From NCBI GenBank assembly GCA_033762255.1, contig JANRLT010000045.1, positions 1 to 39,791 on the forward strand: a DNA stretch of 39,791 nucleotides, in the 5' to 3' direction. The translations under genes were made by a program, and so were the position numbers. Positions 1,584 through 38,607 of the stretch are shown here, piece by piece. The stretch comes from Pirellulales bacterium. GTDB lineage: Bacteria > Planctomycetota > Planctomycetia > Pirellulales > JALHPA01. Position 1 is the stretch's first letter. The number at the start of each line of letters is the position of its first letter. Under the pieces are notes generated by a model that ran no database searches, was not told the DNA's origin, and was given only the letters and a program-made list of their open reading frames with translations.

Positions 1584-1857
1584 TTTTGATCATGAGTGCT
1601 AATCGGGGGTATCCGGTCTTGACAAATGTACATTAATAGTGTAGAGTGGGTGGAAGATGCGGAATCCAGGATTTTGAATGCAGAAGTAGATTACCGCCAT
1701 TCTGAATTCATCATTCTAACTTCCGCATTTCCACATGCCCTCACCCCGTCCCTCTCCCGATCAGACGTTACCACAAATGGGAAGCCACTGTCGGGAGAGG
1801 GGGGAATTGCCAAGGCGGAATGATGAAAGAGTACCGCGCAGCGATAACGGATCATAG

Positions 1858-1877
1858 CCGTGGGTGTCAACCCACGG
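1858..1877. repeat. Short hairpin repeat (CCGTGGGT/ACCCACGG)
   Basis: CCGTGGGT at 1858-1865 pairs perfectly with ACCCACGG at 1870-1877 over the loop GTCA. A degenerate form of the same motif (CCAACCCACGGTG) occurs near 12660, so this appears to be a dispersed small repeat. Confidence 0.5.
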
Positions 1878-2217
1878 TTTTGGATAAGCCAAGCAACATG
1901 GAGCCGCGTAGCGGCGTATTCAATTAAGAATGAAGAATTAAAAATTAAGAATTGGGTGATCGTTTGCTTCTGGGCTAGAAAGATGCCGCTCCTTCGGAGC
2001 TGTGTATGTTTGCCAAAAACCACCCCACTAAAAACCAGCAACCACCGCGCTCCGCTGCGCGTCGCGGCTAAACAAAAACCAAATACCACTCCACCAGCCA
2101 CCAAAAACCAATGACCAGTCCCGCTCGGCGAGCGGGACCTACAGCGCCCCGGACCGCCGATGCCATCGGCGGCTTTGTGCGCGTCGCGGCTAAACGAGAG
2201 AGGGGTTATTTTGTGTA

Positions 2218-8977: not shown

Positions 8978-9070
8978 AGCCCGCTGCGTCAGCAAGGGAA
9001 TAATGAAACAATTGTATCCCTTGCTAACGCTGCGGGCTAAGGGGATTGTCCCTTGCTGACGCTGCGGGCT
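8978..9070. repeat. Three copies of a 22-base repeat, one inverted
   Basis: AGCCCGCTGCGTCAGCAAGG at 8978-8997 is the inverse of TCCCTTGCTAACGCTGCGGG at 9017-9036 and of TCCCTTGCTGACGCTGCGGG at 9049-9068. The first can pair with either of the others, giving alternative hairpins, and the last two form a direct repeat with a 32-base period. The array fills the gap between two minus-strand genes and could act as an RNA structure there. Confidence 0.7.
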
Positions 9071-9077
9071 GATGTTG

Positions 9078-11439: not shown

Positions 11440-12462
11440 CTAGCGGGTGCGGACCACGTTGCTGGCTTGCATCACGCGGCCGCCACGACGGTAGGCGGCT
11501 TGGGGATCAACCATCGGCGCGGGAGGCATCGGGGCGGCTTCGGGAGCGGCAGCCGGGGCCGGAGCGGCCACCGGGGCAGCCGCACAACCATTGCCACAAG
11601 CGGCGGTGCAACCATTGCCATTGGCACAAGGATCAGCCGTGCAGCCCGTGCCACAAGGATCACAAGCGGCGGGAGCGGCACAACCAGGATCGCAAGCGGC
11701 GGGAGCGGCACAGCCGGGATCGCAAGCGGTCGTGCAGGTGTTGCAAGGATCGCAGCTCTTCTTGCAGCAGCTTTTCTTGCAGCCACCGCAACCAAACAGG
11801 TGGCCGAACAGCCCGCAAGAGTGCTTCTTGCAGCAGCTTTTCTTGCAGCTAGGAGTTTCACAAGCGTTGCAAGCGGCGGGAGCGGCACAACCCGGATCGC
11901 AAGCGGCGGCACAGCCGGGATCGCAAGCGGCAGGAGCGGCACAACCAGGATCGCAAGCGGTCGTGCAGCCGTTGCCGCAACCATTACCGCAGGTATTGCA
12001 GCAGGACTTGCACTTGTGGCAATCAAACAAACCCTTCAAACCGCCGAACAGGTCATGGCTATGGCAAACCTTGACGCCCAGGTGGGGGCAGCCGCATTTG
12101 ACATGGCCGGGGCATTTCTTGCAGCAGCTGTTGCAGCTGTCGCAACCATTGTCACATCCCGTGCCACACGGAGCGGCACAGCCGGGGTCGGCCGCGGCAC
12201 AACCGGGATCACAAGCGCCCGTGGCGCAGGGATCGGCGGCGGCACAGCCGGGGTCACAAGCGCCGTTGGCACAACCGTTGCCACACGGTGCCGCACAGCC
12301 AGGATCACTGGTGCAGGCGGTCTTTTCACAACATTGGGGCTGCACAGCCGTGCAACCGCAGTCATTTAGGTTCATCATGCGTTCCAGAAGCTCAAATCCA
12401 TAGCTCTGGCTACACAGGCCCACGCTGACCACGAGCGCGCCAAAAAACTTTGTCCATTTCAT
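11440..12462 (-). CDS. Secreted Cys-rich repeat protein
   Basis: A 340-residue protein with a clear Sec signal peptide (MKWTKFFGALVVSVGLCSQS then YGFELL) and an extremely Cys-, Gly-, Ala- and Pro-rich body. The unit DPGCAA occurs nine times, mixed with CGNGC, CNSCCKKC and KKSCCKK blocks. A less repetitive core contains GLKGLFDCHKC and GLFGHLFGCGGC. The last 60 residues are Ala/Pro-rich, then YRRGGRVMQASNVVRTR. The start is ATG at 12462 with GAGGAG upstream; the terminator above closes it as a single-gene unit. Cys-rich proteinaceous walls have been reported for planctomycetes, so a disulfide-linked or metal-binding surface role is plausible but inferred. Long frames on the opposite strand are shadows of its repeats. 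Confidence 0.85.
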   Translation of the reverse strand: MKWTKFFGALVVSVGLCSQSYGFELLERMMNLNDCGCTAVQPQCCEKTACTSDPGCAAPCGNGCANGACDPGCAAADPCATGACDPGCAAADPGCAAPCGTGCDNGCDSCNSCCKKCPGHVKCGCPHLGVKVCHSHDLFGGLKGLFDCHKCKSCCNTCGNGCGNGCTTACDPGCAAPAACDPGCAAACDPGCAAPAACNACETPSCKKSCCKKHSCGLFGHLFGCGGCKKSCCKKSCDPCNTCTTACDPGCAAPAACDPGCAAPAACDPCGTGCTADPCANGNGCTAACGNGCAAAPVAAPAPAAAPEAAPMPPAPMVDPQAAYRRGGRVMQASNVVRTR

Positions 12463-12812
12463 CGAACAATGTCTCCTCAACTGGGGTTAAGCAAGCTCCA
12501 CCGGTGAACTCGTAGCGCCCGTACCATGGTTGGGAACGCGCCAATCTGCCAGGTTTTGGGGCGGAGAGCCGCGGGCCGTGCACGTGGACACAGCGTGTCA
12601 CAGCGCTTAGCCTTTGCCGCAATCCCTGCGATTGGTGAGATCTTCCAGGCGGGTGATGCCAACCCACGGTGTCTAGCGTCAGGCCCGTGCGAACCAATCC
12701 TTGGCTCGACTTAGCCATCCGGTTTCCTGACGCGCCCTAATCGTGCCTTCAGCACGCAATTTCCATCGGGACAGATGTCGGTATCGGCACTGTCAAAGAA
12801 AGCCCTTGAGCG

Positions 12813-23393: not shown

Positions 23394-24248
23394 TCACAAC
23401 CTGCAATTCGTAATTTGCGTCTCCAAAATTGCCGACGCGCCCAGTTGTTCCAGTTGTTCCATGATAGGGATGACTTCTTGCCGCCGGACCATCACCTTGA
23501 CCGCGCACCAAGCCGCGTCCTCGAGCGCGCTTACCGTGGGGGAGTTGAAACCCGGCGTGATCTTTTCCGCTTGGGCCAGCTTGGCCCGAGGCACGTTGTA
23601 TTCCAACAGGGAGTATGCCCGCGCGATGACGACCCCTTCGAGCCGCCGCACCACGCGGTCGGCCAATTCCGCGTGCCGCGCGGCGCGGTTCTGGATCAGA
23701 ATTGTCTCGTAGCTGCCAATTTCGTCCAAGATCCGCAGTTGATTGGCCGCCAGCGTGCTGCCGGTTTCGACCAGATCAACAATTCCGTCCGCCACGCCCA
23801 AGGCGATCATGATTTCGACAGACCCGGACAGATTGACCAGATGGGCCGAGGCGCCATGTTTGGCCAGATATTGCCTTGTGACATGGGGAAAGCTGGTGGC
23901 GATGCGCAGGCCGTTGAGTTCGGCGGCGGATTTGACCGGGCTGGATTCTGGCACGCAGACAGCCAGTCGGCAGGTCCCCACGCCGAGGGGGAGCCTGTGG
24001 ACGACATCGGCGGCGCTTTCCAGGATGAGGTCCCCCCCGGTGATGCCTAGGTCGATGGCTCCTTCAGCGCACAGGACGGGGATGTCGTCGGTGCGGAGGA
24101 AGGTGACATCGACGGGAAGTTCCTTCACCCGGGCAAAGAGCGTTCGCTCGCTGCGGCGAAAGCTGAGCCCCGCTTGTTTGAGGAGTTCCTCGGCCAATTC
24201 GGCCAACCGCCCCTTGCTAGGGACGCCGATGCGTAGATTGTGGGTCAT
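23394..24248 (-). CDS. hisG: ATP phosphoribosyltransferase (long form)
   Basis: HisG catalyses the first step of histidine synthesis, joining ATP and PRPP. The protein starts LRIGVPSKGRLAELAEELL, then VTFLRTDDIPVLCAEGAIDL GITGGDLI, followed by RIATSFPHVTRQYL, SGSVEIMIALGVADGIVDLVETGSTL with the PRPP-binding Glu-Thr-Gly-Ser-Thr, and a C-terminal ACT-like regulatory domain (SPTVSALEDAAWCAVKVMV). At 284 residues it is the long, histidine-inhibited form that works without HisZ. The AT-rich nuclease-like gene ends 15 bases upstream on the same strand, an unusual neighbour for hisG. No other his gene is in the window. Confidence 0.95.
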   Translation of the reverse strand: MTHNLRIGVPSKGRLAELAEELLKQAGLSFRRSERTLFARVKELPVDVTFLRTDDIPVLCAEGAIDLGITGGDLILESAADVVHRLPLGVGTCRLAVCVPESSPVKSAAELNGLRIATSFPHVTRQYLAKHGASAHLVNLSGSVEIMIALGVADGIVDLVETGSTLAANQLRILDEIGSYETILIQNRAARHAELADRVVRRLEGVVIARAYSLLEYNVPRAKLAQAEKITPGFNSPTVSALEDAAWCAVKVMVRRQEVIPIMEQLEQLGASAILETQITNCRL

Positions 24249-24263
24249 GGGGGAGATGGGAAT

Positions 24264-25100
24264 TTACGATTGATTGGAGTTGTTGTTAACTGGACCTTTG
24301 GTGATTTTATCTTTTTCTGAAGAGTCATCATTTTCCGCTGCATTTTTTTCTTCCTTGCTTCTAGCAATTGCTTTCAGCATTTTGTTGATTTTCTTTTTTG
24401 CTTCATCGGCTTTGTCACCTTCCATAACTTCACGCTTGATGACTTCGTTAATCAAGACCAACTGAATTTGCTCAATTTCAATGCGCACGTCAGGAGAGAT
24501 TTGCTTGAGCCCTTTGCGAATTGAATTTAATACTGGATTTGACAAAAGCATGTTTCCAATAAAGAAGCGACTAAGAGCTTGCTGTTGGGTATGGTAATCA
24601 CCGAGAAGTGATTTGACCCATGCTTCACGACACCACATAAATAAAATTTGCAAATCATCCTCTTGCTTGGTGTTTAGGCAGCAAAAATTTATGTCAATTA
24701 CAAGGTCTTTGTCGATGGGTTTAGAAAATGCGACCTTGTAAACCCTCCAGTGAATACCATTTGTTAAGATTACCCAGTCAACACCTTCGTTGGTTGCATA
24801 ATCTACAGCTTGCTTGACATGGCCATCTTTAAGTTCCAAGCCGATTGCCTTGACTTCAATCAAGCATTTCAATTCATTGTCTAGCTTGATTGCCAAATCG
24901 CAAAAAGTGCCTTTGATCGCATACTCAGAAGTAACCTCAGAGTACTTATCATAACCAAAAACTTCCGTAAGCATGTCCTTAACAATAGTTACTGTATCGG
25001 CCTCGCCCACATCACGGGACTTTGACTGGTCCAAGATTGGTTGGAACTTCTTGATCCCGGAGACAAGCCGATCCTGCACTTTTTTGGGAATGTTGGGCAT
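24264..25100 (-). CDS. Solitary HsdR N-terminal-like (PD-(D/E)XK) protein
   Basis: A 278-residue protein resembling the N-terminal nuclease domain of type I restriction subunit R (HSDR_N-type), without helicase domains. The catalytic residues of the PD-(D/E)XK fold are visible: Asp68 in GTFCDLAIKL, Glu82-x-Lys84 in CLIEVKAIG and the QxxxY motif at residues 97-101 (KQAVDYA), with GVDWVILTNGIHWRVYKV after it. The C-terminal third is helical and highly charged, ending in KEEKNAAENDDSSEKDK. The start is ATG at 25100 with GGAGG 8 bases upstream. Composition is far more AT-rich than the flanking genes, suggesting transfer. No hsdM or hsdS is nearby. It could be a stand-alone defence or DNA-repair nuclease; that is inference. 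Confidence 0.78.
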   Translation of the reverse strand: MPNIPKKVQDRLVSGIKKFQPILDQSKSRDVGEADTVTIVKDMLTEVFGYDKYSEVTSEYAIKGTFCDLAIKLDNELKCLIEVKAIGLELKDGHVKQAVDYATNEGVDWVILTNGIHWRVYKVAFSKPIDKDLVIDINFCCLNTKQEDDLQILFMWCREAWVKSLLGDYHTQQQALSRFFIGNMLLSNPVLNSIRKGLKQISPDVRIEIEQIQLVLINEVIKREVMEGDKADEAKKKINKMLKAIARSKEEKNAAENDDSSEKDKITKGPVNNNSNQS

Positions 25101-33700: not shown

Positions 33701-34047
33701 ATCAACTGGTCGCCACGGTGGGAACCGCGCTCAGCCTGGAAAAAGAGGGGATCCCCGTCGAACGGCTCAAGAAACTGCAAGAAGGGCATCCCAACCTGCT
33801 GGATTACATTATCGACAGCCGCGTGCAGCTCATTATCAACACCCCAGGGGGAAAAGGGGCCCGCACGGACGAGGGGCGGATCCGAGCGGCGGCGGTCAGC
33901 CACGGCGTCCCGTGTATCACGACGCTCCCCGCCGCCGAGGCCGCGGTCCGCGCGATCGAGGCCCTGCGCGAAGAGTCCATGGAGGTGCAGGCGATTCAGG
34001 ACCGACTGCGGGAAGTGCTGGAGTTGGCAGCGGCCGGAACGCGCTAG
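30766..34047 (+). CDS. carB: Carbamoyl-phosphate synthase large subunit
   Basis: CarB makes carbamoyl phosphate from bicarbonate, ammonia (from CarA) and two ATP, for pyrimidine and arginine synthesis. At 1093 residues both ATP-grasp halves are complete: the first with [37 protein letters not shown] and [19 protein letters not shown]; the second with [34 protein letters not shown] and [19 protein letters not shown]. The C-terminal MGS-like allosteric domain begins near [20 protein letters not shown] and includes [19 protein letters not shown]. The start is GTG at 30766 with AGGA 7 bases upstream. It is divergent from the sigma operon. carA is not next to it, a common arrangement outside enterobacteria. 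Confidence 0.97.
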
Positions 34048-34107: not shown

Positions 34108-34737
34108 ATGGCGAATTCAGCAATTCCAACGCAATTCACTGCTAAAACATGGATATATAGCATTCAGCTAATCGTGTTTGGCGGGCTTGCTGCTTTTTGC
34201 TTTTTGTTTGGACCGTTGTTTTTATTCGGTTATCTAAAACGAGCAGATGGAAAATCTGCCTTCGAAGCTGGGATTGCACTCTCAGTCATGTCACTGCCGT
34301 TTCTGTTGGTTGCGGCACTCGCAGCTTTTAATCTCTTGGCACGTCGACGTCCACTTATCCGGATTTGTCAGGAAGGCATTGAAATCAATCTGATTGGTTC
34401 ATCGTCGTTAGATAACGTGCCGTACCTTCCGGGGTTGGTTCGCGTGTTATGGCTGGTCTTTTCACTGCAAGGTTTTCGCCAGCAATTGCTGATTTCACTA
34501 TGGGAATCACTGCACCAATCCAAGGTATCTGGCCCGCCTATGGCACGAACCTTGACACTAATTGGCGCATTTTATCGACAGGGTCTTTCCGGGCCTAATC
34601 AACAAACTCCCGTTGCCACGAGAATCACATTTCCGGAAGTCGCATTTGCAAGGCCACTGCATGAAGTTGCTTCGGCACTCCGTGCTTATTGTCAAAACTC
34701 AGAATTGAGAAGCAATCTTCCGCATTTAAGTCGTTAG
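34108..34737 (+). CDS. Hypothetical membrane protein, two N-terminal TM helices
   Basis: I do not recognise this 209-residue protein. Two strong hydrophobic helices are visible near residues 17-42 (IYSIQLIVFGGLAAFCFLFG onward) and 54-76 (GIALSVMSLPFLLVAALAAF). They are followed by a soluble part whose first strands, RPLIRICQEGIEINLIGSSS LDNVPYLPG, recall the start of a PH-like domain but without a clear match. The C-terminus is polar with a short helix (HEVASALRAYCQNSELR). Composition is more AT-rich than carB. No clear ribosome site precedes the ATG, which lies 60 bases after carB. It could be a recent insertion downstream of carB. Confidence 0.6.
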   Translation: MANSAIPTQFTAKTWIYSIQLIVFGGLAAFCFLFGPLFLFGYLKRADGKSAFEAGIALSVMSLPFLLVAALAAFNLLARRRPLIRICQEGIEINLIGSSSLDNVPYLPGLVRVLWLVFSLQGFRQQLLISLWESLHQSKVSGPPMARTLTLIGAFYRQGLSGPNQQTPVATRITFPEVAFARPLHEVASALRAYCQNSELRSNLPHLSR

Positions 34738-34790
34738 AGATTGCAGTTAATTACAATTGCCGGGTACTCCTGATTAGCGTTTAGCCTCGG

Positions 34791-34897
34791 TTATTGACTG
34801 GCTACCTCAGGAACTTGTTCCTGGGGCGCGCAGCGGTAAGAATCGTACTTGCAAATACTTCCGCTCAACTATGGGGCTGCTTGTGCTGCGCACACCG
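34791..34897 (+). repeat. Repeat element A, copy 2 (right end truncated)
   Basis: Begins TTATTGACTGGCTACCTCAG, then the palindrome-like CAGGAACTTGTTCCTG, CGCAGCGGTAAGAA and GGGGCTGCTTGTGCTGCGCA. It stops at CACACCG without the GGAACAAGTTCC right arm seen in copies 3 and 5. Confidence 0.8.
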
Positions 34898-35070
34898 CAT
34901 TAAGTGTCGATACTACCCGCTGGCCAAGTTGGTGGGTTGTTCGTGGGGGTGCCAACAAATGGCTTTCAGCAAGAACGGTGCAAAATTAAAATAAAAATAG
35001 TAAAAACGACAGTGTTAACCGCGCCAGCTCGACCCTTACACCAATACCAAAGATTAGGGGGCATATTCTT

Positions 35071-35637
35071 ATGCGTGACCAAGTACTTCAAGCCTTCCAG
35101 GTATTAGAAGGCGCAACTACATGGTCGGACGTACTCGAAGCATGTCGACAGCTCTTCATGCACTCGGATGAATACCACCATGCGGGGCAAAATCCATTTG
35201 TTCCTGCCGAAGTCGATGCGGTTGGCAAGGCAATATTAGAATACATAGAGAATCCTGACTACCCAGTGCTCCGTGAAATCGTATTCCAGGTTCCCCGGCC
35301 ACTAGAGGGAAGTTCTATTGAAATCAATGAATATGCATCCATATTTTCCGATGATATGCTGTATCAGAACGGTTCAATCGAGTTCGCATCGCTTGATCTT
35401 GAATACCTGCGGAGTCGTCTGAAAATCTATCTCGTAGGAATTCTTTTTCGGTATCAGTTCTGCATCTCCGAGGATCGCGCGGCATTTCCAGTTTCTAAGA
35501 TTCTCGACTATATGGATGGCGTAAAAGTACTGTTTTCGCAAGAGCAAAGGGATGCTGAGCTACACGACGCACTTTGGACGACGCTTAAAGCACTTGATTC
35601 TCTTGAGCCGCATCACAGAATAGAGGAAGAGGCGTGA
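35071..35637 (+). CDS. Hypothetical cytosolic protein (188 aa), between repeats
   Basis: I do not recognise this protein. The 188-residue frame is intact, acidic, without signal peptide or membrane helices. It is mostly helical: VLQAFQVLEGATTWSDVLEA, VDAVGKAILEYIENPDYPVL, LDLEYLRSRLKIYLVGILFR and AELHDALWTTLKALDSLEPH. The start is ATG at 35071 with AGGGGG 10-13 bases upstream, a good signal. It lies alone between an A repeat (34791-34897) and a B repeat (35681-35777), and is more AT-rich than the housekeeping genes. The helical pattern resembles small immunity or regulatory proteins, but that cannot be assigned from the sequence. Confidence 0.6.
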   Translation: MRDQVLQAFQVLEGATTWSDVLEACRQLFMHSDEYHHAGQNPFVPAEVDAVGKAILEYIENPDYPVLREIVFQVPRPLEGSSIEINEYASIFSDDMLYQNGSIEFASLDLEYLRSRLKIYLVGILFRYQFCISEDRAAFPVSKILDYMDGVKVLFSQEQRDAELHDALWTTLKALDSLEPHHRIEEEA

Positions 35638-35680
35638 AGGGTGCCGCGAGTTAATGAATAGGTTTCAATCTTTTGTAATA

Positions 35681-35777
35681 TGAATCGGGCCGTTGGCCCA
35701 ACATTTTTTTATTTCCCTATAACCTAGGGCGACGCTGCGCTTGCCCTAGGCTGGGATCGGTTGGGCCTGTGGCCCAC
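35681..35777 (+). repeat. Repeat element B, copy 2
   Basis: The most symmetrical copy. Inner arms CCTAGGGC and GCCCTAGG are perfectly complementary around the loop GACGCTGCGCTT. The outer arms GGGCCGTTGGCCCAAC (from 35688) and GTTGGGCCTGTGGCCC (to 35775) pair over most of their length. The words GCCCAAC and GTTGGGC bound a 71-base core. Confidence 0.88.
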
Positions 35778-35873
35778 ACAGCGTCAAGCGTGTTTACCCA
35801 GCAAAGAGTCAAATGCTTCTGGCCCATCCATTTTTCATTTCTGAGCCTTGAGTGAAAGCGAGTATAGCCCAAA

Positions 35874-36025
35874 TTATTGACTGGCTACCTCAGGAACTTG
35901 TTCCTGGGCCGCACAGCGGTAAGAAGCATACTTGCAAAGATTTCCACTCAACTGTGGGGCTGCTTGTGCTGCGCAGACCGGAACAAGTTCTCGGGTCACC
36001 CGCGTGCCCTAGGTGGTACCGCGCC
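35874..36025 (+). repeat. Repeat element A, copy 3 (full length)
   Basis: Begins TTATTGACTGGCTACCTCAG, with the left motif CAGGAACTTGTTCCTG (35891-35906) and its inverse GGAACAAGTTC (35980-35990), then CGTGCCCTAGGTGG and GCGC. The left and right motifs are reverse complements of each other, so the element is bounded by inverted repeats. It ends some 20 bases before the stop of the PEP-CTERM gene on the other strand. Confidence 0.85.
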
Positions 36026-36046
36026 TTCGTAATTTTTCTAACAAAG

Positions 36047-36853
36047 TCAATTTGGGCTTCGTCGCCGTGTTAATATCCATATGGCACTGACGACGGTGAT
36101 GCCCGCAAATACCAAACCGCTCGGCTCTGGCACAGCCATGTCTTCGATCCGCACATAATCGACGTTGAGTGTTCCCAGATGAGATGGTCCACCGGCGCCA
36201 TTGAAGGCATAGTACCTGAAGCCTAACGATATGCTAGTTACCGGGTTTGTGGCGACTCCCGTGTAAAATCGACTCCCGTCCCAATCTGCTTTGACCAAGT
36301 TGTTCGACCGATCAAGATCCACGCTCGCCGTGTCGGCAAGCGGCGCGGACCCCATCCCCGTGTCTGTGAAGGTGTTCCCAAAACCCACGTATCGGCTGCC
36401 CGAAAACACAACCCAGCCGTCGGACATGATTGCCCGTCCCACGGTGTCGCCGTTGCTGTCGAATAGACGCAGCTCAACCGATTGCATCGCACGTACGCTA
36501 TTGCTGCCCCCTGGAACTATTGAATCCCAAGAAAAGTCAAAGTCGATATGAAAGTCCGAGACTGGCGGGATGTTACGGCTAAGCGTAACAGTCGCAATTG
36601 GTCCGCCGTTACCCGAGTTGATCACCGTGGGGGCAATATCAGTGACAGAGAGTGTTGTTCCGCTTTCTGAATAAGTCCAACCCGTCGCATTGGTAAGCGT
36701 CACGTTCCAAGCAGGGTCAAGAACACCATCATTAAAGTGATCTTCTAGCACCGTTGCCGCACCAGCGGGCAAAGTTATGATTGAGAAAATTGTGAGAGTT
36801 GCAGTAACAAGAAGCATGATACGGCAACCCAACGAGCGAAAAACAAGATTCAT
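36047..36853 (-). CDS. PEP-CTERM-sorted exported protein
   Basis: A 268-residue exported protein. An N-terminal signal (CRIMLLVTATLTIFSIITLPAG) is followed by a beta-rich domain of about 200 residues (VLEDHFNDGVLDPAWNVTL, then FHIDFDFSWDS and SVDLDRSNNLVKADWDGSRF) resembling a lectin or laminin-G-like jelly roll. The C-terminus VPEPSGLVFAGITVVSA plus IWILTRRRSPN is a PEP-CTERM sorting signal: VPEP, a hydrophobic helix and a basic end. These are processed by an exosortase and usually surface-attached or secreted with exopolysaccharide. No exosortase gene is in the window. The start is ATG at 36853 with GGGGAG about 11 bases upstream. Repeats A and B flank it on both sides. Confidence 0.85.
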   Translation of the reverse strand: MNLVFRSLGCRIMLLVTATLTIFSIITLPAGAATVLEDHFNDGVLDPAWNVTLTNATGWTYSESGTTLSVTDIAPTVINSGNGGPIATVTLSRNIPPVSDFHIDFDFSWDSIVPGGSNSVRAMQSVELRLFDSNGDTVGRAIMSDGWVVFSGSRYVGFGNTFTDTGMGSAPLADTASVDLDRSNNLVKADWDGSRFYTGVATNPVTSISLGFRYYAFNGAGGPSHLGTLNVDYVRIEDMAVPEPSGLVFAGITVVSAIWILTRRRSPN

Positions 36854-37054
36854 GAGCAGTTCTCCCCAATTTAAGATAGAAAAGTTAAATGCTGTGTAAA
36901 TTTCATAATTCATTCTAACGCTTTTGATTGCCTGGTGCAAAAGTAATGCTTGTATATGTTTGTAATGGCCTTGAAGATGCAGCTTATTAGCGTGTAAGTA
37001 GAGCGTTGCGGTGTGCCTTTTCGCACACTGCAAGTGGCCAGTGGGTAGCTTAAG

Positions 37055-37175
37055 TTATTGACTGGTTACCTCAGGAACTTGTTGCTGGCGCAGCGATAAG
37101 AAACAAACTTGAAATTCGTTTCGCTTTACTCAGTGGGCTGCATGTGCTGCGCAGGCCGGAAAAAGTTCCTGTGCC
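37055..37175 (+). repeat. Repeat element A, copy 4 (diverged)
   Basis: Has TTATTGACTGGTTACCTCAG, the left motif CAGGAACTTGTTGCTG with one change, the shared GGGCTGCATGTGCTGCGCAG and a mutated right motif GGAAAAAGTTCC. The middle has diverged more than in copies 3 and 5. Confidence 0.75.
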
Positions 37176-37223
37176 ATCCGTAGGATATCCATGAATGAAA
37201 AAATCTTTTTGGATACACCTGTA

Positions 37224-37320
37224 TGAATCGGGCCGTTGGTCCTACCTATTGAGTTTTACCATTAACCTAAGGCGACGCTGCGCTTGCCCTAGGCTGGGAT
37301 AGGTTGGGCCTGTGGCCCGC
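37224..37320 (+). repeat. Repeat element B, copy 3
   Basis: Same layout as copies 1 and 2: TGAATCGGGCCGTTGG, inner arms CCTAAGGC and GCCCTAGG around GACGCTGCGCTT, then GGTTGGGCCTGTGGCCC. The left outer arm differs (GGTCCTACC) but still pairs with the right arm, using one G-T wobble and one mismatch. Confidence 0.85.
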
Positions 37321-37346
37321 ATAAAATTTAAAACGGCTAGCCTAGT

Positions 37347-37506
37347 TTATTGACTGGCTACCTCAGGAACTTGTTCCTGGGCCGCACAGCGGTAAGAAGC
37401 ATACTTGCAAAGATTTCCGCTCAACTATGGGGCTGCTTATGCTGCGCACACCGGAACAAGTTCCCGGTGCAACCCGCGGAACCCGCGTCCTAGGTGGGAC
37501 TGCGCA
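37347..37506 (+). repeat. Repeat element A, copy 5 (full length)
   Basis: Nearly identical to copy 3 for its first 110 bases, with the same left motif CAGGAACTTGTTCCTG and right motif CCGGAACAAGTTCCCGG, then CCCGCGTCCTAGGTGGGAC. It follows B copy 3 after 26 bases, so B and A alternate here. Confidence 0.85.
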
Positions 37507-37562
37507 GAAGCTGCATTTTTGATAGGGGAAAGCCGGATAGCGGCTGGTCCCACCCTACGAAC

Positions 37563-37605
37563 TTCTTGTGCTGCCCACACCGGAACAAGTTCCCGGTGCT
37601 ATCCC
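37563..37605 (+). repeat. Repeat element A, right-end fragment
   Basis: TTCTTGTGCTGCCCACACCG and GGAACAAGTTCCCGGTGC match only the right end of copy 5, about 110 bases after its own right end. It appears to be a partial duplication. The segment between, around 37548-37560, contains GTCCCACCCTA, the inverse of the CTAGGTGGGAC end of copy 5. Confidence 0.7.
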
Positions 37606-37704: not shown

Positions 37705-38607
37705 ATGCCCCCCTGGCTAGTTTGGACAATCCTCGCGCTGGTTTCCTGGGGCATTTGGGCCGCGTTGTCCAAGGCCCTGGGGGACGCCGTCACGCCGCGG
37801 CAATGCCAAGCGTATTCCACACTGGGTATTTTGCCGATCCTTGGCGGCTTGGGCTTTTCTGAGCAGGTAAAGATTGAAGCGGATCTGGCCTGGAGCATTT
37901 GGTATGCTTTTTTTGGCGGGTTGATCACGTGCGCGGGGAATCTGTTTTATTATGCGGCGCTGGCGCGGGGAAGCAAGGTGGCGACCGCGGTGTCGCTGAC
38001 CGCCCTCTATCCGGTCGTGACGGTGCTCTTGGCGGTGACCGTGTTGAACGAGCGATTAAACAGTGTGCAAGTCATTGGATTGTTCCTGTCGCTGGGGGCG
38101 ATTTGGTTAATTAATATTGCCGGCGAAGGAAGCGTCCTCTCGAGTGTGAACTTTTTGGCGTTATTACCGATTGTACTCTGGGGCTGGTCGGGCTTTATGG
38201 AAAAAGTCGCCACGCTGACCCTGACCGGCGAGACCGCGGCCATGTTTTACCTGGGGGCGTTTCTGCCCGTGGGCCTGTACTTTGCCCTGACCGAACCATG
38301 GCCGCGCGGGCTGACAGTGAACCAATGGCTGATTCTGCTGGCGGTGGGATTTTTACTGGCGTTTGGGAATTACGCGGTGCTGATGGCGTTTGCCTACCAG
38401 GGTAAAGCGGCGGTTATTGCCCCGATTACCAGCCTTTATCCCATGATTAGCATTCCCTTGGCGGTGTTGTTTTTTCGCGAGTGGATCGGCCCACGCGAAG
38501 GAGTGGGAATCACGCTGGCATTACTGGCGGTGCTGGCGCTGACGTGGGAATTTCCCCAGGAGGTAAATACCGCGCGGCATGATGTTGTTTTAGCCGTAGG
38601 ACGCTAG
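37705..38607 (+). CDS. EamA/DMT-family transporter
   Basis: A 300-residue inner-membrane protein of the drug/metabolite transporter superfamily. Ten hydrophobic helices are visible as two EamA halves. The first starts WLVWTILALVSWGIWAALSK and includes NLFYYAALARGSKVATAVSL and LYPVVTVLLAVTVLNERLNS VQVIG. The second starts LLPIVLWGWSGFMEKVATL and includes LMAFAYQGKAAVIAPITSLY and ISIPLAVLFFREWIGPREGV GI. Substrates of this family range from amino acids to sugars and cannot be told here. The ATG at 37705 starts a typical EamA N-terminus; there is no clear ribosome site in the C-rich leader, which borders the repeat array. Likely a single-gene unit. Confidence 0.88.
   Translation: MPPWLVWTILALVSWGIWAALSKALGDAVTPRQCQAYSTLGILPILGGLGFSEQVKIEADLAWSIWYAFFGGLITCAGNLFYYAALARGSKVATAVSLTALYPVVTVLLAVTVLNERLNSVQVIGLFLSLGAIWLINIAGEGSVLSSVNFLALLPIVLWGWSGFMEKVATLTLTGETAAMFYLGAFLPVGLYFALTEPWPRGLTVNQWLILLAVGFLLAFGNYAVLMAFAYQGKAAVIAPITSLYPMISIPLAVLFFREWIGPREGVGITLALLAVLALTWEFPQEVNTARHDVVLAVGR

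Follow-up and report, generated by a model that had tools for sequence, protein, structure and literature searches.

Two families of dispersed hairpin repeats in a planctomycete genome and the Y1 transposase genes that they flank

Repeats and genes at the locus

We analysed 39,791 nucleotides of the draft genome of a Pirellulales bacterium (GCA_033762255.1; hereafter G000, 5.47 Mb in 72 contigs), corresponding to contig 45 (JANRLT010000045.1) and referred to below as the window, in which single genes alternate with structured repeats of two families, named A and B. An earlier note on this DNA had compared the arrangement to an integron gene-cassette array, with repeats resembling repetitive extragenic palindromes (REPs) or miniature inverted-repeat transposable elements (MITEs) as an equally good explanation. 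The interval lies between a long open reading frame (ORF) that ends at 34047 and an EamA transporter gene at 37705-38607, and contains four full A elements, two B elements and one A fragment, all on the forward strand; a 188-aa ORF and an ORF on the minus strand lie among them. The order that had been described (A2, 188-aa gene, B2, A3, PEP-CTERM ORF, A4, B3, A5, A fragment), with all full copies on the forward strand, was confirmed at the sequence level. The features are given below; ORF calls are crude, bit scores refer to the covariance model R1 of B-like elements, and a REPIN is an element built of two inverted REPs.

34108-34737, +, 209-aa ORF upstream of A2, without family match
34784-34920, +, A2, full A element (REPIN) with a degenerate right REP, 87% identical to A5
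35071-35637, +, 188-aa ORF between A2 and B2, without family match
35679-35778, +, B2, three-hairpin element with both attC-like words, 58.7 bits (modelled on the opposite strand)
35867-36002, +, A3, full A element (REPIN), 92% identical to A5
36047-36853 (from its ATG), -, 268-aa ORF between A3 and A4, PEP-CTERM match below threshold
37048-37180, +, A4, full A element, left REP with a 4-nt deletion, 76% identical to A5
37222-37321, +, B3, three-hairpin element, 51.3 bits
37340-37476, +, A5, full A element (REPIN)
37562-37604, +, A fragment, right REP only

Distribution of the repeats in the genome

The B core GCGACGCTGCGCTTGCC was found with at most one mismatch at 106 sites in the 5.47 Mb genome, 55 forward and 51 reverse (reversed control, 0), and the A core GGAACTTGTTCC at 60 exact sites genome-wide (reversed control, 1). 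Both families are repeated far beyond chance. Most B copies in G000 were single, and 27 of 32 lay in the gaps between predicted ORFs; coding sequence makes up 79% of the loci concerned. With respect to neighbouring genes, 18 B copies were co-directional, 5 convergent and 4 divergent, showing no clear preference, and the consensus of the B flanks, examined for target-site preference, was weak.

The earlier note had pointed out the common orientation of the repeats in this interval. We rejected it as a signal, given the 55:51 ratio of B genome-wide and a within-contig concordance of 63 of 117 pairs (p = 0.21), that is, no bias; neighbouring A copies, counted from their positions, agreed in approximately 14 of 21 pairs. 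A lagging-strand bias of B, sought via the same within-contig concordance, gave no signal either.

A copies were strongly clustered, with 21 close pairs compared to 2.1 expected, and clustering of B was not significant (9 close pairs, 5.2 expected). Clusters of A were present on contigs 7, 21, 46, 53 and 39, and neighbouring copies were often each other's closest relatives. Because of this clustering and the kinship of neighbours, the A run of the window is a local build-up like those on the other contigs. B and A copies no more than 1.5 kb apart were nearly confined to the window, and a composite B-A unit was without support: the alternation is almost unique to the window and the identity of B2 and B3 (86%) is ordinary. 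On contig 21 (approximately 333.5-334.9 kb; locus L084, 3524-4924), small ORFs and a 466-aa ORF that encodes a pretoxin HINT domain (PT-HINT, 52.6 bits) lie between two A copies; accessory loci such as this one may be favoured sites of A clusters.

The distribution also bears on the gene-cassette reading. In an integron-like array without integrase (CALIN, a cluster of attC sites lacking an integrase) the repeats would be recombination sites and the single genes exchangeable cassettes. The superficial likeness lies in single genes between structured repeats on the same strand, and B2 does carry two attC-like words, GCCCAAC (35696-35702) and GTTGGGC (35760-35766), 71 bases apart from end to end. 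They are, however, not a property of B, since only one of 34 aligned copies has both. A simple attC scan of the window returned 0 sites. Likewise, no integron integrase of the IntI type exceeded the TIGR02249 cut-off in G000, where two full-length partial matches scored best with XerC/D models. A point in favour of the cassette reading is a 51-residue N-terminal remnant on contig 47, which is not the contig of the window; it matched integron-integrase models only (23546-23698; L139, L243). It is located close upstream of a Y1 transposase gene (23939-24415), and a simple scan of 16 kb round it found no attC-like site. The earlier note had named occurrence at hundreds of unrelated intergenic sites in random orientation, with intervening genes that do not vary between strains, as the pattern that would refute cassettes; with more than 100 B sites and about 60 A-core sites, both in both orientations, G000 comes close to it in number and orientation. 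Because the repeats are dispersed in both orientations, no integrase passes the cut-off and the attC scan gave 0, the cassette reading is not supported, and with repeats at 60 to 106 sites that are tied to HUH transposases (below) we rejected it as exceedingly improbable.

A repeats and their transposase gene

The REP-associated transposase that the earlier note had suggested looking for was found, once for each family: RAYT-A (REP-associated tyrosine transposase, contig 35) for A and TnpA-B (contig 54) for B, among ten Y1 transposase matches in G000. An A element of approximately 137 nt consists of two inverted REPs round a linker of approximately 45 nt, each REP having two hairpins, and occurs in many dispersed copies. 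RAYT-A (locus L070, 173 aa) has the motifs DHVH and YMHQNP, passes the NCBI RAYT model NF047646 with 106.8 bits (cut-off 80) and has E. coli TnpA-REP (4er8) as its only match in the PDB. A REPs lie on either side of the gene, two upstream and, inverted, one downstream, with 98% identity (E 1.6e-17). In other planctomycetes, most of the genes closely related to it also have flanking REPs, in the same layout (GGGTRGC head, variable hairpin, small hairpin, AAGARG tail) and with other stem sequences. The head of the relatives is GGGTAGC or GGGTGGC, whereas the left REPs of G000 mostly have GGGTACC.

RAYT-A is present as one intact copy and one fragment. The latter is C-terminal (contig 20, 68903-69085; 80% identity over 30 residues), has an A REP adjoining it and represents a second, decayed copy of this system.

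As in published REP/REPIN-RAYT systems (PMC2817692, PMC3116915, PMC3733652), A has inverted REP doublets, a single-copy RAYT gene between inverted cognate REPs, many intergenic copies, local clusters and relatives with a GTRG head. It differs from them in the GTAC head of most G000 copies and in the two hairpins of each REP. The arrangement of REP and RAYT as seen here has already been published (PMC2817692, PMC3116915) and a planctomycete, R. baltica, was already known to have REPs (PMC3733652). Family A is a REPIN family of the ordinary kind, with nothing categorically new about it.

Alternatively, ordinary segmental duplication or gene conversion alone could have produced the A clusters, with no present role for the RAYT. 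The frequent closest kinship of neighbours is in line with this, as are the low copy number of RAYT-A and the pairs on contigs 21 and 42, in which similarity extends well past the element (327 and 257 nt). In the clusters on contigs 7, 46 and 53, however, similarity stops near the element borders (145-159 nt), with different DNA next to the copies, as would be seen if the element itself had moved, and we consider duplication alone an unlikely explanation.

B repeats and their transposase gene

B elements are approximately 98 nt long and have three hairpins. A short one lies at each end (GGGCC..GGCCC), the central one is a long palindrome (CCTAGGGC..GCCCTAGG), and the linker is variable. Full B copies are located, inverted, on both flanks of TnpA-B (L067), a Y1 HUH gene of 150 aa. 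The protein is IS200-like (66.6 bits, cut-off 55), matches the ISHp608 transposase in the PDB and has the motifs DHVH, WQ and YIDNQAIHH. It is single copy, and G000 has few genes of this type (3, with 37-39% identity to TnpA-B, for its next relatives).

By motif, size and copy pattern, TnpA-B carries the sequence signature published for TnpA-Y1 subclass 1.2, for which DH[IV]H, WQ, YIKNQKEHH, a median of 148 aa and a mean identity of 36.2% are given (PMC6006769, table 1). Previously, this subclass was surveyed as having a low copy number, no insertion-sequence properties and REP 'no', and as occurring mainly in Cyanobacteria and Bacteroidetes (PMC6006769). The length, the motifs and the few divergent copies agree with TnpA-B; what differs is that the genes described here are in Planctomycetota and are flanked by cognate dispersed three-hairpin elements. 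The B-like elements are repeats for a transposase group that had none in the open-licence literature, although they may have been described elsewhere.

Other known systems share single features with B. Class 3 of TnpA-Y1 (Quentin 2018) has planctomycete hosts and atypical, sometimes numerous flanking structures (approximately 600 in Solibacter), but its proteins, of 178 aa, have NHVH, W[TA] and YV[VI][AENY]EQ, and the foot is CnGA, a description that TnpA-B does not match. In IS200/IS605 elements and their MITEs the TnpA type and the end hairpins are similar, whereas the tnpA gene of B is not amplified together with the ends in near-identical copies, there are three hairpins instead of two subterminal ones, and inverted copies of the whole element flank the gene. 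TIRYT/TIRtron systems (Di Nocera 2013, PMC3733652) likewise have a Y1 gene between inverted repeats that are not GTAG REPs, some of them dispersed. They were later equated with subclass 2.1 (PMC6006769), with long proteins and Y---NP in place of the Y---Q--HH of TnpA-B, a distinction drawn at the level of the protein. B also differs from the GTRG REPs, which have a GTRG head and a single hairpin and form inverted doublets, in its three hairpins and in its mostly single copies in G000.

B-like elements in other planctomycetes

We aligned 25 elements flanking genes of this transposase group in 12 genomes of the order. In this alignment 14 of 18 base pairs change on both sides and are still paired, and the covariation score was 0.409, compared to 0.123 +/- 0.015 for shuffles and at most 0.191 for slid controls. 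In nearly every B-like element, NNAG (GTAG, CTAG, ATAG, CCAG) stands before the central hairpin, and this motif is a plausible candidate for the guide tetranucleotide.

The model R1 was then applied to the flanks of the genes. In the order, where part of the loci are training data, elements were present on both sides of 18 of 21 subclass-1.2-type genes, and elsewhere in the phylum, at loci unseen in training, on both sides of 21 out of 28. Among 40 loci from other Y1 queries, 39 were without hit; the one with hits (L073) is a gene of the subclass-1.2 type that has decayed. The association of B-like elements with genes of this type is a general one. The decayed gene (contig 42) and a second subclass-1.2-type TnpA gene (L068, contig 25) have flanks that match an element of another sequence type in the window (1831-1919).

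The two elements of one gene resemble each other more (similarity 0.48) than those of different genes (0.13), and element similarity was correlated with TnpA protein similarity (Mantel r 0.38, 0/5000). Of 39 genomes, 19 have a strong TnpA match (E <= 1e-15), and every one of these contains the elements; of the other 20, 5 do (Fisher p 7.7e-7, uncorrected for ancestry). Two genomes had element counts of at least 111. Several genomes other than G000 have the elements dispersed as inverted pairs round an unrelated spacer of 9-29 nt, a layout equal to the flanks of the gene minus the gene.

Conserved hairpins could also be expected if the repeats had once been mobile and were now domesticated RNA or DNA regulatory elements (terminators, mRNA stabilisers or protein binding sites), with this role keeping the hairpins. 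The compensatory changes in strong hairpins and the mostly intergenic location are consistent with this, and such roles are known for REPs elsewhere (literature cited in PMC3733652 and PMC6006769). On the other hand, Rfam gave no match in the window, orientation to neighbouring genes had no clear preference (18/5/4), the covariation comes from elements flanking one transposase group, and the presence of elements follows that transposase. We therefore consider a regulatory role an improbable explanation of the repeats.

Other repeats and neighbouring genes in the window

Outside the interval, the window contains further A and B elements:

1238-1291, +, single A REP, left half, with 98% identity to the flanking REP of RAYT-A
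1491-1582, -, partial A element
1831-1919, +, B-like three-hairpin element of the other sequence type, 49.0 bits, cognate to the TnpA genes L068 and L073
25300-25399, +, B1, three-hairpin element, 57.7 bits

In total, no fewer than five different Y1 genes of G000 have cognate repeats in the window. Short GTAG-tagged palindromes TGTAGGAGGCRACTCCGTTGCCGAA at 2332-2362 and 2504-2533 match the inverted flanks of the Y1 gene L069 (contig 17), and hairpin repeats CCCTTGCTAACGCTGCGGGCT at 8978-9072 match the flanks of the Y1 gene L072 (contig 60). Additionally, degenerate direct repeats GCGGCACAACCNGGATCGCAAGCG are densely packed at 11575-12306, often at a distance of 30 nt, inside a minus-strand ORF of 346 aa (11440-12480) that perhaps encodes a repeat-rich low-complexity protein.

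An ORF is indeed present where a PEP-CTERM gene had been described, but its match to PF07589 was 12.6 bits, below the cut-off of 20.7. Structure prediction for the 188-aa ORF from its single sequence was unusable (mean predicted local distance difference test, pLDDT, 41). No defence families were matched among the ORFs neighbouring the repeats, and an Rfam search of the window gave no match.

Discussion

Families A and B are very probably independent of each other and consist of non-autonomous single-stranded DNA (ssDNA) elements, each family being the substrate of its own cognate HUH (Y1) transposase encoded elsewhere in the genome, with mobility inferred. Copies of both are dispersed over the genome, cognate copies flank the respective transposase genes, and the hairpins are conserved. 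The REP-like or MITE-like reading of the earlier note is supported and made specific, each family having a cognate HUH transposase gene that it flanks.

By analogy with IS608, ISDra2 and E. coli TnpA-REP (PMC6006769, PMC8266576), the enzyme would bind hairpins exposed in ssDNA, probably at replication forks. With a short tetranucleotide as guide, it would cut beside them via a 5'-phosphotyrosine link and would paste the element at a new site. Copies would persist in intergenic and accessory DNA. The alternation of A and B in the window would reflect co-accumulation next to a few accessory genes, with local duplication of A, and the repeats would not mobilise the genes lying between them.

Some observations weigh against this interpretation. 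Transposition, excision and enzyme activity are taken for A and B from homologous systems, and the empty-site comparison in two same-genus pairs of genomes (G015/G031 and G019/G035) met too little shared sequence or ambiguous alignment. Most A copies of G000 have GGGTACC where REPs typically have a GTRG head. Furthermore, five genomes have B-like elements but no strong TnpA match, which may be due to loss, incompleteness or another enzyme, and the co-occurrence test carries no correction for ancestry.

For the wider group, it is likely that TnpAs of subclass 1.2 form a REPtron-like system of their own. Across Planctomycetota, and possibly in every lineage that has the subclass, each would act on dispersed three-hairpin elements, which in several genomes are arranged as inverted pairs separated by 9-29 nt. 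IS200 ends and GTRG REPs would then be joined by a further architecture. For the window, a false integron lead is removed. The three-hairpin elements would explain part of the intergenic repeats of planctomycetes and so help to keep these from being taken for cassette arrays or RNA elements, and a HUH transposase-like subclass without reported substrate gains, in these covarying elements, a candidate that can be tested in vitro.

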